Assembly: GCF_013030985.1 (NCBI RefSeq)
Contig: NZ_WPYP01000001.1
Location: forward strand, 992,001-1,056,000
Direction of reading: 5' to 3'
DNA: 64,000 nt
DNA from: Ruegeria arenilitoris
GTDB taxonomy: Bacteria > Pseudomonadota > Alphaproteobacteria > Rhodobacterales > Rhodobacteraceae
Within the stretch, counting starts at the first letter, position 1. Each line of letters starts with the position of its first letter. Below the pieces are notes generated by a model that saw only the letters and a list, made by a program, of their open reading frames with translations, did no database searches and was not told the origin of the DNA. Position numbers and translations under genes: made by a program. Positions 58,866 to 64,000 of this stretch are shown in pieces.

Positions 58866-59627
58866 CTATTGCGGACCGAGGTCGAACAACTCGGTCGATA
58901 GAAACAGCGCCGTGACCCCCTCGGGGGTTGCGGCAACGCCGGACAGGATTGCAGCCACTTGCAGTCCGGCGGGCGTTTCCACCAACAGTGGCGCACCGGA
59001 ATCCCCCATCATCACAGGGCAAATCGCCAACAGAATCCCGCCCTGATACCGACGCGGAGGACAGGTTTCGGTTCGGCTGAGAATATGTGGCCGCACTCCA
59101 GGATACCCTGCAACAAAAGCCGACGCATCCTCGGCATTTGCAAGCGGCAGATAGCCGACCTGCTGACCAATCGGCTCGCTGAGTTCCAGAACCGCCCAAT
59201 CCAGATCGGCACGATCATCAAACGTCCCGTCTTTGCCCTGGTCGGAATGCAACTGATACCCCGCTACGTCGGACACAGCAGCAGTTGATCCACGCTGATA
59301 CCCGGCAGCAAACCGGATGCTGGAGGGCGGAATCCATCGTTGCCGTGGTGCGTTGTACAGGCAATGCGCAGCGGTCAGGACGAGCCGATCCGACACCAGA
59401 ACACCGGTGCAGTGGGACCTCTGATCCCGGCTGGCAAAGTTGATCCGACCAATGGCACGCCACGGGGGCTGGCCCGCATCCAAAATTTCGCGGTTGCGAA
59501 TAGCATCACACCCTGACCCGGACTGTGTCCCCAGCCGGCAGACCGGAGACCAGTTTTCCGAATAAACACCCTGCGACAGTGCGGGCTGCATCCAAAGCAG
59601 TGCGATACTCAGGACCAGCCAGCGCAT
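58866..59627 (-). CDS. Exported trypsin-like serine protease
   Basis: S1-family protease of 253 residues with a signal peptide (about 18 residues, ending ALSQ). The catalytic triad is His88 (VLTAAHCL), Asp143 (DLDWAVLEL) and Ser210 (MMGDSGAPLL). Cysteines flank the triad as in secreted trypsins. It is convergent with the aminotransferase gene (3 bp apart) and lies 11 bp after the phaR stop on the same strand, so may be read through from phaR. Confidence 0.9.
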   Translation of the reverse strand: MRWLVLSIALLWMQPALSQGVYSENWSPVCRLGTQSGSGCDAIRNREILDAGQPPWRAIGRINFASRDQRSHCTGVLVSDRLVLTAAHCLYNAPRQRWIPPSSIRFAAGYQRGSTAAVSDVAGYQLHSDQGKDGTFDDRADLDWAVLELSEPIGQQVGYLPLANAEDASAFVAGYPGVRPHILSRTETCPPRRYQGGILLAICPVMMGDSGAPLLVETPAGLQVAAILSGVAATPEGVTALFLSTELFDLGPQ

Positions 59628-59638
59628 TCTTGGCGCGG

Positions 59639-60193
59639 TCAGTTCAGCTTGGAGAGTTTCTGCTGCAGCTCGGCAAGCTGCTTCTTGATGTCATCCAGGT
59701 CTTCTTTGGATTCCGGTTTTTCTTCGTCATCCTTGCCCGGACCGGACCAGTTCCCCGACAGGCCACCCGTCATAGCCTTCAGAAATGCCTTTTGCTGCGC
59801 CTGCATCGCCTCAAACCCCGGCATCTGCGCCATCGGGTTCATGGCGTTCATGTTTTCCATCATCTTGCTTTGGCTCTCGCGCAGCATCTCGAACGAGCTT
59901 TGCAGGAATTGCGGCATCATCCCACCGCCCGGGATCATGTAGCTGCGGACCAGATCATTCAGCACATTCACTGGCAAAACATTCTCGCCGCGGCTTTCGT
60001 GCTCGGCAATGATTTGCAGCAGGTATTGCCGGGTCAGATCGTCCCCGGTTTTCAGATCGATGATCTGCACCTCACGCCCGTCGCGGATGAAGGTCGCTAT
60101 ATCTTCCAGCGTGACATAGTCGCTGGTCTCGGTGTTATACAGCCGGCGGCTTGCATAGCGTTTGATCAACAGCGGTTTTTCTTGTTCTGACAC
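59639..60193 (-). CDS. phaR: PHA synthesis repressor PhaR
   Basis: Regulator of polyhydroxyalkanoate (PHA) granule genes, 184 residues. The N-terminal DNA-binding domain is KPLLIKRYASRRLYNTETSDYVTLEDIA; a PHB accumulation domain follows (about residues 70-115, GENVLPVNVLNDLVRSYMIPG) and a C-terminal acidic coiled coil. Family members bind nascent PHA and then release the phasin promoter. It lies downstream of phaP with its own short promoter region. Confidence 0.95.
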   Translation of the reverse strand: MSEQEKPLLIKRYASRRLYNTETSDYVTLEDIATFIRDGREVQIIDLKTGDDLTRQYLLQIIAEHESRGENVLPVNVLNDLVRSYMIPGGGMMPQFLQSSFEMLRESQSKMMENMNAMNPMAQMPGFEAMQAQQKAFLKAMTGGLSGNWSGPGKDDEEKPESKEDLDDIKKQLAELQQKLSKLN

Positions 60194-60247
60194 CGTTTAC
60201 CCTCCCCAAGGATGATGCGTTGCAGCAGAGATTATGCGAGCGCAGAA

Positions 60248-60279
60248 CAAAAAGAAAGGGCAGGCCAAAAGACCTGCCC
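60248..60279 (-). terminator. Rho-independent terminator of phaP
   Basis: On the minus strand GGGCAGGTC (60279-60271) pairs with GGCCTGCCC (60266-60258) around TTTT, then TTTCTTTTTG. It lies about 48 bp after the phaP stop. Confidence 0.88.
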
Positions 60280-60327
60280 AACGCGATTGCACCAGATGGG
60301 AGGAACGGGTGCGCCTCGCGGCCTTAA

Positions 60328-60774
60328 TTATTTTGCAGTTGCAGCTTTCTTGGCAGCAGCTGTGACGTCGTTGGTTGCTTTCTTGACGGCAGCGGTTGCG
60401 TCTTCAGCAGCTTCTTTGCCTGCAGCCATCAGCAGCTCGACGGTTTCGGTCTGCAGTTTTTTCGCGATTTCGGCGAAAGCAGCCATGTTTTCAGCAGCAA
60501 CTTCAGCCGAAGCGCTTGCGAAATCGGTCGCGGCTTTTGCGTAGTCAGCCGGCTCGGCCTTTGCTTTCGACATCTCGTTCAGTTTGGACAGGGTGTCCTT
60601 GGTCCATTTGTTCGAGATTTCAGCCGATTTTTCTGCGGCTTCCAGCGCAACGCCCGACAGTTTTTCATTCAGGGTTGCGGTCGATTTGAAAGCACCTTCC
60701 AGAGCAGTGGTGTCAACAGGGAACGCGCCCATCATTTCTTTCAGGGTCGCGGTAAAGTCTTGAGTCTTTGCCAT
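60328..60774 (-). CDS. phaP: Phasin
   Basis: PHA-granule surface protein of 148 residues, all helical and Ala/Lys-rich: MAKTQDFTATLKEMMGAFP, then amphipathic helices, ending in AAVKKATNDVTAAAKKAATAK. It matches Rhodobacteraceae phasins in size and composition. Two CTGC-N3-GCAG sites lie 64-108 bp upstream, consistent with PhaR control. Confidence 0.9.
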   Translation of the reverse strand: MAKTQDFTATLKEMMGAFPVDTTALEGAFKSTATLNEKLSGVALEAAEKSAEISNKWTKDTLSKLNEMSKAKAEPADYAKAATDFASASAEVAAENMAAFAEIAKKLQTETVELLMAAGKEAAEDATAAVKKATNDVTAAAKKAATAK

Positions 60775-60837
60775 TGTCCTAATCCTTTTTGCCGAACCGG
60801 GCCCACCCCGGCTTTCATCAGCTTGAGGATAATATGA

Positions 60838-60881
60838 ATGCTGCGTCGCAGCATTTCAAGTTTTTTCTCGCTGCGACGCAG
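60838..60881. promoter_or_regulatory. Two PhaR-type boxes upstream of phaP
   Basis: CTGCGTCGCAG (60841-60851, within the 17-bp palindrome 60838-60854) and CTGCGACGCAG (60871-60881), centres 30 bp apart. They fit the CTGC-N3-GCAG consensus described for PhaR of Paracoccus denitrificans. The two arms are also complementary (12 bp, GCTGCGACGCAG) and could form a hairpin after phaC. Confidence 0.85.
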
Positions 60882-60904
60882 AATTTTCTAGTTTCAAAAT
60901 GAAA

Positions 60905-62707
60905 TCAGCCGTTTGGGTGGGCCACGACATAGGTGCCAGGTGCCGGGGCCAGCCGCGGGTGATCCGAATCACCGGTTTCGCGGGCGGGAACTTGCTTGCC
61001 TGAACGCTTCTTCAGCCACGCCTCCCACAGGGGCCACCACGAGCCTTCGTGGAATTCTGCCTGTTTCAACCAGGTATCGGCATCCGCCTTCAGATCCGGG
61101 TTGGTGTAATGTCCGTATTTCTTTTTGCTGGGCGGGTTGATGATGCCCGCGATATGGCCGGATTCGGACACTACGAAAGTCTTGCTTCGCGACGCCATCT
61201 TCTGAACACCGCGATAACAGTCTTTCCACGCCGCAATATGATCCGTCTCGCAGGTGATTGCCATCAACGGCACATCGACATCGCTGAGTTTCAGCTTGTG
61301 GCCGAACAGCTCAAACCCGTCGGTGGCGAATTCGTTGCGCTGGCACAGGCCCCGCAGATACTCGACCGTCATCTTGGCCGGAAGGTTGGCCCCGTCGCCA
61401 TTCCAGAACAACAGATCAAAGGCCGGAGGCACCTCACCCAGCATATAGCTGCGGATTGCCGGACCATAAACCAGATCGCGCGAGCGTAGAAAGGACATGG
61501 TGCGCGCCATGATCCACGACCGCAGCACGCCCTCTTTGTTCACCTCTTCCTCGATCCCATCGATGAAGTCGTTCTGCAGGAAAGGCGTAAACTCACCCTG
61601 TTCGGAAAAATCCGTCAGCGCGGTGAATAGAGTAGCCGACTTGACGGATTTGTCGCCGCGTTGCTTCAGCAGCGCCAGCGTCAGACTCAGCGTGGTGCCT
61701 GCGATGCAATAGCCGATCGCGTTCACTTGCTTGACCTTGCAGATCTTCTTGACCTCTTCGATCGCGGTCAGGAAGCCGTCCTGAATGTAATCCTCCATTC
61801 CGGTTTCGGCATAGCTTTCATCCGGATTGACCCAGCTGACGACAAACAGGGTATAGCCTTGCTCGGTCACCCATTTGATCAAGCTGTTCTGCGCCTTGAG
61901 GTCGAGAATGTAGAATTTGTTGATCCAGGGCGGGAACAGGACGATTGGCGTTTCGTGAACCGTCTCGGTCGCGGGCTTGTACTGGATCAGCTCCATCATG
62001 CGGTTGCGATACACCACGTCACCGGGCGTCGTCGCCAGGTTGCCGCCAACCTCAAAGGCACTTTCGTCGGCCAGTTTCACAACCAGTTCGCCGTCGTTGG
62101 CTTCAAGGTCCGAGACGAGGTTCTCAAGTCCCTTGATCAGCGACTGGCCCTCGGTTTCAACAGCCTTTTCCAACGCGTCCGGGTTTGTCGCCAGAAAATT
62201 CGTGGGTGCCATCATGTCGACAATCTGCTGCGAGAAATACCGCAGGCGCCGTTTGTCCTTTGCATCCAGATCCTCGACCGAGGCAACGGCCTGGGCGATG
62301 GCTTCGGAATTGGTCTGATATTGCTGGCGGATCAGGCGAAAGTAAGGGTTGGTTTCCCAAAGGGGGTTGGAAAACCGTTTATCGCTGGGCTTGGGGTCGT
62401 CGTCATCAACGTCTCCCGAGGTCAGCGCCTGCTGCGCTTCGGCAAAGTTCAGAACCGATTTGCCCCAGTATTCAATCTGTTGTTCCAACAACTTGGCGGG
62501 ATTCTGCCAAGCTTCGGCCCAATATGCAGTTGCTGCTCGTGCGAAAAGCTCCTGATTCGGGGCGTCCAAAGCAGGGGTATGCGACTTTTTCGAAGACATG
62601 ACTTCGATCAGACGTTTGGAGAGCTCCTCGACCTTCTCCATGTTTTCCTTAAGGCGTTCAATGTTTTCTTCTGTCAATTCTGGCATCTGGTCTTCACTTG
62701 TTGTCAT
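60905..62707 (-). CDS. phaC: Class I poly(3-hydroxyalkanoate) synthase
   Basis: Polymerises hydroxyacyl-CoA into PHA on granules. The 600-residue protein has the catalytic Cys334 in NAIGYCIAGTT, Asp489 in ITCETDHIAAW and His518 in SESGHIAGIINPP. The size fits single-subunit class I enzymes. It is divergent from phaZ over a 115-bp gap containing a further PhaR-type box 25 bp before its start codon. Confidence 0.97.
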   Translation of the reverse strand: MTTSEDQMPELTEENIERLKENMEKVEELSKRLIEVMSSKKSHTPALDAPNQELFARAATAYWAEAWQNPAKLLEQQIEYWGKSVLNFAEAQQALTSGDVDDDDPKPSDKRFSNPLWETNPYFRLIRQQYQTNSEAIAQAVASVEDLDAKDKRRLRYFSQQIVDMMAPTNFLATNPDALEKAVETEGQSLIKGLENLVSDLEANDGELVVKLADESAFEVGGNLATTPGDVVYRNRMMELIQYKPATETVHETPIVLFPPWINKFYILDLKAQNSLIKWVTEQGYTLFVVSWVNPDESYAETGMEDYIQDGFLTAIEEVKKICKVKQVNAIGYCIAGTTLSLTLALLKQRGDKSVKSATLFTALTDFSEQGEFTPFLQNDFIDGIEEEVNKEGVLRSWIMARTMSFLRSRDLVYGPAIRSYMLGEVPPAFDLLFWNGDGANLPAKMTVEYLRGLCQRNEFATDGFELFGHKLKLSDVDVPLMAITCETDHIAAWKDCYRGVQKMASRSKTFVVSESGHIAGIINPPSKKKYGHYTNPDLKADADTWLKQAEFHEGSWWPLWEAWLKKRSGKQVPARETGDSDHPRLAPAPGTYVVAHPNG

Positions 62708-62731
62708 TTTAACAATTCCCCCCTAACCTCG

Positions 62732-62742
62732 CTGCTATGCAG
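62732..62742. promoter_or_regulatory. Possible PhaR box in phaC/phaZ gap
   Basis: CTGCTATGCAG fits CTGC-N3-GCAG. It lies 25 bp before phaC and 80 bp before phaZ. A single 8-base match can occur by chance in a window this size; position is the main support. Confidence 0.5.
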
Positions 62743-62822
62743 AATAACGTCGTGGGTCTTGGGGGGCAAAGCGGCGAATGGTCCGAACTAAAACAGGCTG
62801 ACACGCAGGAGGCCCCTTTTTC

Positions 62823-64000
62823 ATGCGCTACATGATGACTTACGACCTGATGGAAACGATGCGCAACACCAACCAGTGGATGGGCGCAACTGCCAGCGCC
62901 ATTGCATCTTATCCCATGTTCTCGATGGTTCCCAACCCCGCCTTCAGCATGATGGCCGCCTGGGGTGAGGTGACCGAGCGGACATTTCAACGCATGGTCG
63001 TCAAACCCGACTGGGGCATTCGCACCTTTACCTGCGAGGACGGCAAGGACCATCTGGTCGATGTCACAACCGTCGTTGAACGCCCCTTTGGTGATCTGGT
63101 CCATTTTCGGGTGAACGGTCGCGAGGAACAGCCCCGCAAGGTTTTGCTGGTTGCGCCGATGTCGGGGCACTACGCCACGCTGCTGCGATCGACGGTGAAA
63201 AGTCTGCTGGTCAACTGCGAAGTATACATTACCGATTGGCATAATGCGCGCGACATCCCCGTGTCCGAAGGCAAGTTCGATGTTGAGGACTATACTCTCT
63301 ATCTTGTCGATTTTATGAAAGAGCTTGGCCCGGACACCCATGTCGTGGCCGTTTGCCAACCGGTTCCGCTGACGCTGGCCGCGACCGCCTATCTGGCCGA
63401 GGTCGAACCCAAGGCGCAGCCCAGCACCCTGACCCTGATCGGTGGCCCGGTCGATCCCGACGCCACTCCGACCGACGTGACCGACTTTGGCCGCCGTGTC
63501 ACAATGGGCCAGTTGGAAGAAACCATGATCCAGCGCGTCGGCTTCAAGTACAAGGGCGTAGGCCGCATGGTCTATCCCGGCCTGCTGCAGCTGGCGTCGT
63601 TCATGTCGATGAACGCAGACCGCCACTCCAAGGCATTCTCAGACCAGATCCAGCGCGTGATGCGCGATGAAGCGTCAGATCACGATGCCCATAACCGGTT
63701 CTACGACGAATATCTGGCCGTCATGGACATGACGGCCGAGTTCTACCTGTCCACGGTCGAGCGCATTTTCAAAAACCGTGAAATCGCGAAGAATGAATTT
63801 GTGGTCGCCGGTCACAAGGTCGATATCGGCAAGATCACCGATGTTGCGGTCAAGACCGTCGAAGGCGCCAATGATGACATCTCAGCCCCCGGTCAGTGTA
63901 TTGCGGCGCTGGACCTGTGCACCGGTTTGCCGGATTCGAAAAAGGCCAGCCATGTTGAACCCGGAGCCGGTCACTATGGCATCTTTGCCGGACGCAGCTG
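62823..64000 (+). CDS. phaZ: Intracellular PHA depolymerase, 3' end cut by window
   Basis: Mobilises stored PHA. The visible 392 residues (start ATG 62823, MRYMMTYDLMETM) include the catalytic Cys178 in VVAVCQPVPLTLA, Asp352 in DDISAPGQ and His384 in GAGHYGIFAGRS, the pattern of intracellular PhaZ. The family is usually 400-430 residues, so only a short C-terminus is missing off the right edge. GGAGG lies upstream of the start. Confidence 0.93.
   Translation, partial: MRYMMTYDLMETMRNTNQWMGATASAIASYPMFSMVPNPAFSMMAAWGEVTERTFQRMVVKPDWGIRTFTCEDGKDHLVDVTTVVERPFGDLVHFRVNGREEQPRKVLLVAPMSGHYATLLRSTVKSLLVNCEVYITDWHNARDIPVSEGKFDVEDYTLYLVDFMKELGPDTHVVAVCQPVPLTLAATAYLAEVEPKAQPSTLTLIGGPVDPDATPTDVTDFGRRVTMGQLEETMIQRVGFKYKGVGRMVYPGLLQLASFMSMNADRHSKAFSDQIQRVMRDEASDHDAHNRFYDEYLAVMDMTAEFYLSTVERIFKNREIAKNEFVVAGHKVDIGKITDVAVKTVEGANDDISAPGQCIAALDLCTGLPDSKKASHVEPGAGHYGIFAGRS

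Follow-up and report, generated by a model that had tools for sequence, protein, structure and literature searches.

Two palindromes of the form CTGC-N3-GCAG lie between phaC and phaP in Ruegeria arenilitoris, and a sequence-only reading of this DNA proposed that they are at once the PhaR operator of phaP and a stem-loop at the 3′ end of the phaC mRNA. Can one DNA element carry both roles? Based on a comparison with relatives, we consider it probable (about 0.6) that it does. The comparative support is strong, with covariation of the two box spacers seen only where phaC lies directly upstream; against the dual role stands a stem that lacks a U-tract. The window referred to below is the whole stretch of DNA analysed, 64,000 nucleotides in length.

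The phaC-phaP intergenic region

The locus contains the following features.

60905..62707, minus strand: phaC, class I PHA synthase (TIGR01838, over the curated cut-off)
60328..60774, minus strand: phaP, phasin of 148 aa (open reading frame, named by position and relatives)
59639..60193, minus strand: phaR, PHA synthesis repressor (TIGR01848, over the curated cut-off)
60831..60859, minus strand: predicted phaP promoter TTGAAA-17-CATATT (consensus scan, 9/12 matches; kept in relatives)
60871..60881, minus strand: distal PhaR-type box (box 1, the earlier of the two in the phaC transcript), exact CTGC-N3-GCAG, 23 nt past the phaC stop codon
60841..60851, minus strand: proximal PhaR-type box (box 2), exact CTGC-N3-GCAG, inside the −35/−10 spacer of the phaP promoter
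60841..60881, minus strand: predicted stem-loop of phaC read-through RNA, 12-bp stem (60870-60881 with 60841-60852) and 17-nt loop
62732..62742, minus strand: single PhaR-type box, the third at this locus, between the divergent genes phaC and phaZ, at about −35 relative to the phaC start codon

The genes phaC, phaP and phaR are all encoded on the minus strand, with phaZ divergent from phaC. PhaZ scored over its curated cut-off (TIGR01849), and the nearest relatives of the PhaR of this locus belong to Ruegeria. As the phasin returned zero NCBIfam matches, the name phaP rests on its position and on its relatives. The phaC stop is at 60905 and the phaP start at 60774, both on the minus strand, and the boxes lie in between. 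TTGAAA-17-CATATT, on the phaP strand, is the sole promoter-like site predicted in 60700-61000; relatives conserve its −35 and −10 together with the box that separates them, and box 2 occupies its 17-bp spacer. Since both boxes are upstream of the expected phaP transcription start, the hairpin would be possible only in RNA coming from phaC.

Twin PhaR-type boxes as a probable operator

Read on the plus strand, box 2 is CTGCGTCGCAG (60841-60851) and box 1 is CTGCGACGCAG (60871-60881). The starts of the two boxes are exactly 30 bp apart, and the reverse complement of 60870-60881 is identical to 60841-60852, leaving a loop of 17 nt; the spacing and the perfect 12-bp complementarity described in the sequence-only reading are thus both borne out.

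An operator role of the twin boxes, likewise put forward in that reading, is well supported by the sequence and by analogy. The boxes fit the consensus, are conserved, sit at the predicted phasin promoter and adjoin phaR, so that palindromes, promoter position and an encoded PhaR occur together in this genome, and twin boxes are bound in other alphaproteobacteria. According to the available excerpts of two papers, PhaR binding and phaP repression have been demonstrated in other species (PMC6201568, PMC12542648): footprints in Bradyrhizobium yield TGCRNYGCASMA, with two sites in phaP1 (PMC6201568), and gel shifts placed two copies flanking the −35 of both phaP1 and phaP2 in Sinorhizobium (PMC12542648). 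As twin PhaR boxes at phasin promoters are already known, this part of the proposal is ordinary. As to the attribution of the consensus to Paracoccus denitrificans, in the excerpts available CTGCNNNGCAG is credited to R. sphaeroides (PMC12542648) and the P. denitrificans site is described as TGC-rich (PMC10888616).

A single box at the phaC promoter, the third box of this locus, is present in 62 of the 66 loci with a placeable phaC start (the start could not be placed in 11 of 77 rows). Its spacer is R-Y-R in 60/62, against R-N-Y in the twin boxes; in a table read by eye, it is unrelated to the twin spacers, and it changes slowly. Because of this unrelated spacer, the twin spacers do not simply follow a species-wide PhaR preference, and that explanation was rejected.

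Conservation of the box pair

Single boxes are frequent enough to arise by chance in a stretch of this size: the window contains 4 (1.75 expected), and at least 4 occurred in 10 of 100 shuffles. Genome-wide we counted 177, compared with 68 for a reversed control. The oriented pair was matched in 241 of 394 genomes of the family (mostly one genome per genus) versus 3 reversed-control hits in all, which rules out a chance origin. Allowing one transition per half-site, the pair is found in 77/77 phaC-phaP intergenic regions, namely those of the 76 of 80 relatives that could be delimited by script, plus the window. A class-wide pattern search matched 11 of 385 genomes, five of them from the same family; by eye, the six outside the family and one inside it resemble chance hits in coding sequence. 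Genus-level searches for further second copies matched 1 to 4 genomes each, and a search for plasmid-borne phaP gave two records. Because the search pattern demands TTG between the boxes and a CTGC or CCGC start, these counts describe well-kept pairs, with strongly decayed ones unsampled.

We also observed variants of this arrangement. Four loci with longer phaC-phaP gaps (L143, L260, L280, L055) have, between phaC and box 1, a further CTGC-N3-GCAG palindrome that is exact. In one genome (G102, locus L300), degenerate and G+C-richer twin boxes precede two phaP-like genes, and phaC was not found within the fetched stretch. Twin-box phasin promoters of rhizobia are, as a rule, not located behind phaC.

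Covariation of the box spacers

Any two palindromic boxes pair at 8 of 11 positions by construction. As they always form an inverted repeat, only the N3 spacers and the flanks are informative on a hairpin. For each pair we set the three spacer bases of box 1, free only within R-N-Y, against those of box 2 read as the reverse complement, and obtained expected values by permuting spacer partners. Among the 77 intergenic regions, 28 had exactly complementary spacers (5.4 ± 2.2 expected), and spacer identity in direct orientation occurred in 6 (4.9 expected). In a broader set of 147 pairs, mostly one per genus, 45 were exact (11.2 ± 3.2 expected). In the genus-level pair and half-site tables, 3/150, 4/85 and 9/37 rows were discarded on visual inspection as resembling coding sequence or being misaligned.

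For a comparison by genomic context we scanned 316 of 324 loci, leaving out 8 from the class-wide search, among them the window's own (L226), so the pair in the window belongs to neither class below. Sites were found in 311 of the 316 loci (330 raw sites); 10 with no pha gene beside them were dropped and 33 duplicates collapsed. Of the resulting 287 distinct sites, three of unknown context were set aside (two close to the end of a contig, one with a short upstream stretch) and 284 were counted. About 46 true-looking pairs, plus one and two from other listings, had unfetched surroundings and fall outside the classes. In class A (n = 245), box 1 follows the phaC stop within 100 bp, with 23-25 bp the commonest distance (110/245). 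Class B (n = 39) has the same twin boxes and phaP promoter not directly behind phaC: phaC is 102-262 bp away (17), over 300 bp distant with a further phaP intervening (13), or not found upstream (9).

In class A, 75/245 sites have exactly complementary spacers (18.4 ± 4.1 expected) and 466/735 spacer positions form Watson-Crick pairs (318.8 ± 12.5 expected). In class B the numbers are at expectation, with 4/39 exact (2.8 ± 1.6 expected) and 52/117 Watson-Crick pairs (52.0 ± 4.9 expected), divided by kind into 18/51 (phaC 102-262 bp away), 20/39 (another phaP between) and 14/27 (phaC not found). The difference between classes is significant by label permutation (P = 0.00035; P = 0.002 for loci L081 and up), and P was ≤ 0.0174 with cut-offs of 45-150 bp, with GC matching and with perfect half-sites only, the cut-offs having been varied after the initial contrast. 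The idea of the contrast arose from nine non-adjacent cases, all in class B; without these, class B has 42/90 pairs and 4/30 exact sites, and the difference from class A remains (P = 0.004).

Shared ancestry does not readily produce this signal. We exchanged box 2 between nearest relatives, using disjoint pairs by PhaC distance (median 0.21; 237 of the 245 class A sites), a design that retains much of the phylogeny. Among 75 informative pairs (118 in total), pairing went down in 63 and up in 12; the closest-relative subset (7 pairs, 3 informative) gave 2 versus 1, which is not significant. Fourteen different spacer types are represented among the exact pairs of class A. A similar association was seen in the half-sites (the three rows of G102 left out): CCGC in box 1 is accompanied by GCGG in box 2 in 6/23 cases versus 15/221 (P = 0.008). 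The mirror combination, GCGG in box 1 with CCGC in box 2, showed no association (1/14 versus 33/230), nor did non-partner half-site controls.

These results bear on the simplest account of the locus, by which the boxes serve as operator only, arm complementarity being a by-product of two palindromic copies and the perfect 12 bp seen here a matter of luck. The pairing of 8/11 positions by construction agrees with it, as does the lack of full spacer complementarity at 170 of the 245 class A sites. Class A covariation is nevertheless far above permutation and persists against the exchange of box 2 between nearest relatives; for the family this account is already disfavoured, and we consider it improbable. 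The same 170 sites count in part against the sequence-only reading, which held that relatives keeping the boxes while losing arm complementarity would count against it: most phaC-adjacent relatives are incomplete, and their mean pairing is far above chance.

Some observations fit the class contrast poorly. Where a locus has a copy of each class (10 loci), the A copy pairs more in 5, equally in 2 and less in 3. Spacer identity in direct orientation is in excess in class B (7/39, 2.7 expected, P = 0.012), possibly by chance, as one of many measures. Half-site changes per site are more numerous in class B (0.74) than in class A (0.34); the contrast survives with perfect half-sites.

If the two spacers covary, the cause could lie in protein, DNA or RNA. 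At the protein level, a PhaR tetramer on both boxes might need like spacers in two inverted elements (TGCTGC-N3-GCAG), where complementarity in inverted orientation equals identity of the elements. PhaR indeed forms tetramers in both B. diazoefficiens and P. denitrificans, according to excerpts of PMC10888616. The single phaC-promoter box in the same genomes, however, has an unrelated spacer, and class B promoters, served by a PhaR of the same family, have no covariation; we regard this explanation as highly improbable.

At the DNA level, template switching in the quasi-palindromic boxes could copy one spacer onto the other in inverted form, perhaps aided by phaC transcription exposing single strands. 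The fast change of the spacers is in keeping with such a process. The gain in folding energy over exchanged spacers does not differ between strands (−2.19 ± 0.22 and −2.08 ± 0.21 kcal/mol), as suits a DNA-level process, and the middle spacer position within class A does not clearly favour G-T over A-C (log-odds 0.48 ± 0.30 and 0.15 ± 0.32). A missing wobble bias at first pointed to a cause in DNA; the contrast between classes A and B shifted the balance to RNA. Plain template switching would be expected to operate in class B too, and the absence of covariation there rules it out as a process common to every twin box, so that only the transcription-dependent version survives. Furthermore, G-T exceeds A-C mismatches by 138:63 in class A and 24:23 in class B (stratified OR 2.1, P = 0.025), an excess of A over B that a mutational origin does not lead one to expect. 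Overall we judge a mutational origin unlikely. The strand-specific evidence for an RNA stem is modest, and the simplest cause of the covariation would be selection on an RNA stem behind phaC.

Predicted fold and candidate role of the stem

The transcript strand folds with a predicted energy of −24 kcal/mol (z = −3.55, 200 shuffles). No Rho-independent terminator was called on the phaC strand. There is no U run past the stem, the T fraction of the 14 nt after box 2 being 0.39 in class A versus 0.36 in class B. With a stem but no U-tract, an intrinsic terminator is ruled out, and we propose a 3′-end stem after Rho-dependent termination or trimming instead. An Rfam scan of 59500-63000 gave three matches, each scoring well under its gathering threshold and located away from the twin boxes.

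Class B includes 17 sites with a gap of 102-262 bp. In six of them a hairpin in the gap beats shuffles (z ≤ −1.9), as if phaC had its own end structure there; in the other 11 none does. Individual sites depart from this pattern: L320, one of the six and with a strong gap hairpin, has exact spacers, as do the class A sites L190 and L135 despite another strong hairpin between phaC and box 1.

Separately, the phaP leader contains a short G+C stem ahead of the start codon (CCGGG-GTGGG-CCCGG, 60797-60811, minus strand). Leader stems of 5 bp or longer, including 3 or more G-C pairs, are present in 198 of 287 relatives' leaders, versus 72 after shuffling. They comprise 107 different sequences, end at a median of 24 nt before the ATG and occur in both classes. 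This looks like a covarying leader hairpin of the phaP mRNA.

Discussion

We propose that the 41 bp form a single DNA element under two constraints. In DNA, it would be a double PhaR operator with one box in the −35/−10 spacer and the other 30 bp upstream, at which PhaR, by analogy with its homologues, would repress phaP until PHB granules titrate PhaR away. In RNA, transcripts leaving phaC are predicted to pair the boxes into a 12-bp stem 23 nt past the stop codon, and selection on this stem would keep the otherwise free N3 spacers complementary. The likeliest role of the stem would be to mark or protect the 3′ end left on phaC mRNA by Rho-dependent termination or trimming, and to limit read-through into phaP, which must remain off until granules exist.

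More tentatively, an operator pair drafted throughout the family as the 3′ hairpin of the upstream gene might allow PhaR to couple the DNA and RNA roles, although we think such coupling doubtful. While bound, PhaR would obstruct the phaP promoter as well as polymerase leaving phaC; once granules remove PhaR, the phaC 3′ end would depend on the RNA stem alone, which would keep synthase and phasin output separable.

In the portions of the open-licence literature available, we found no prior account of an element with both roles or of operator spacer covariation, and those on Rhodobacter 3′ ends make no mention of pha genes. If the dual role is true, nature offers here a clear example of a single short sequence used both as double repressor operator and as mRNA 3′ hairpin, with phaP promoters away from phaC, which have no covariation, as a natural control. 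Operator-spacer covariation would then be a simple statistic for finding other dual-use operators, and the arrangement would bear on the separation of PHB synthase and phasin expression in bioplastic-making bacteria.

Comparison with known systems

As in the phasin operators of R. sphaeroides, P. denitrificans, B. diazoefficiens and S. meliloti, the boxes here are of the CTGCNNNGCAG or TGCRNYGCA type, and two copies are placed around the phasin −35, as excerpts of PMC6201568 and PMC12542648 describe for alphaproteobacteria. Unlike in those operators, the −35/−10 spacer here is filled by the proximal box, phaC immediately precedes the pair, and there is covariation between the two spacers. The element shares with mRNA 3′-end stem-loops and Rho-independent terminators a stable predicted stem soon after a stop codon and covariation of its variable positions. 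It differs from them in its 17-nt loop, its absent U-tract and a stem mostly dictated by a DNA-binding consensus.
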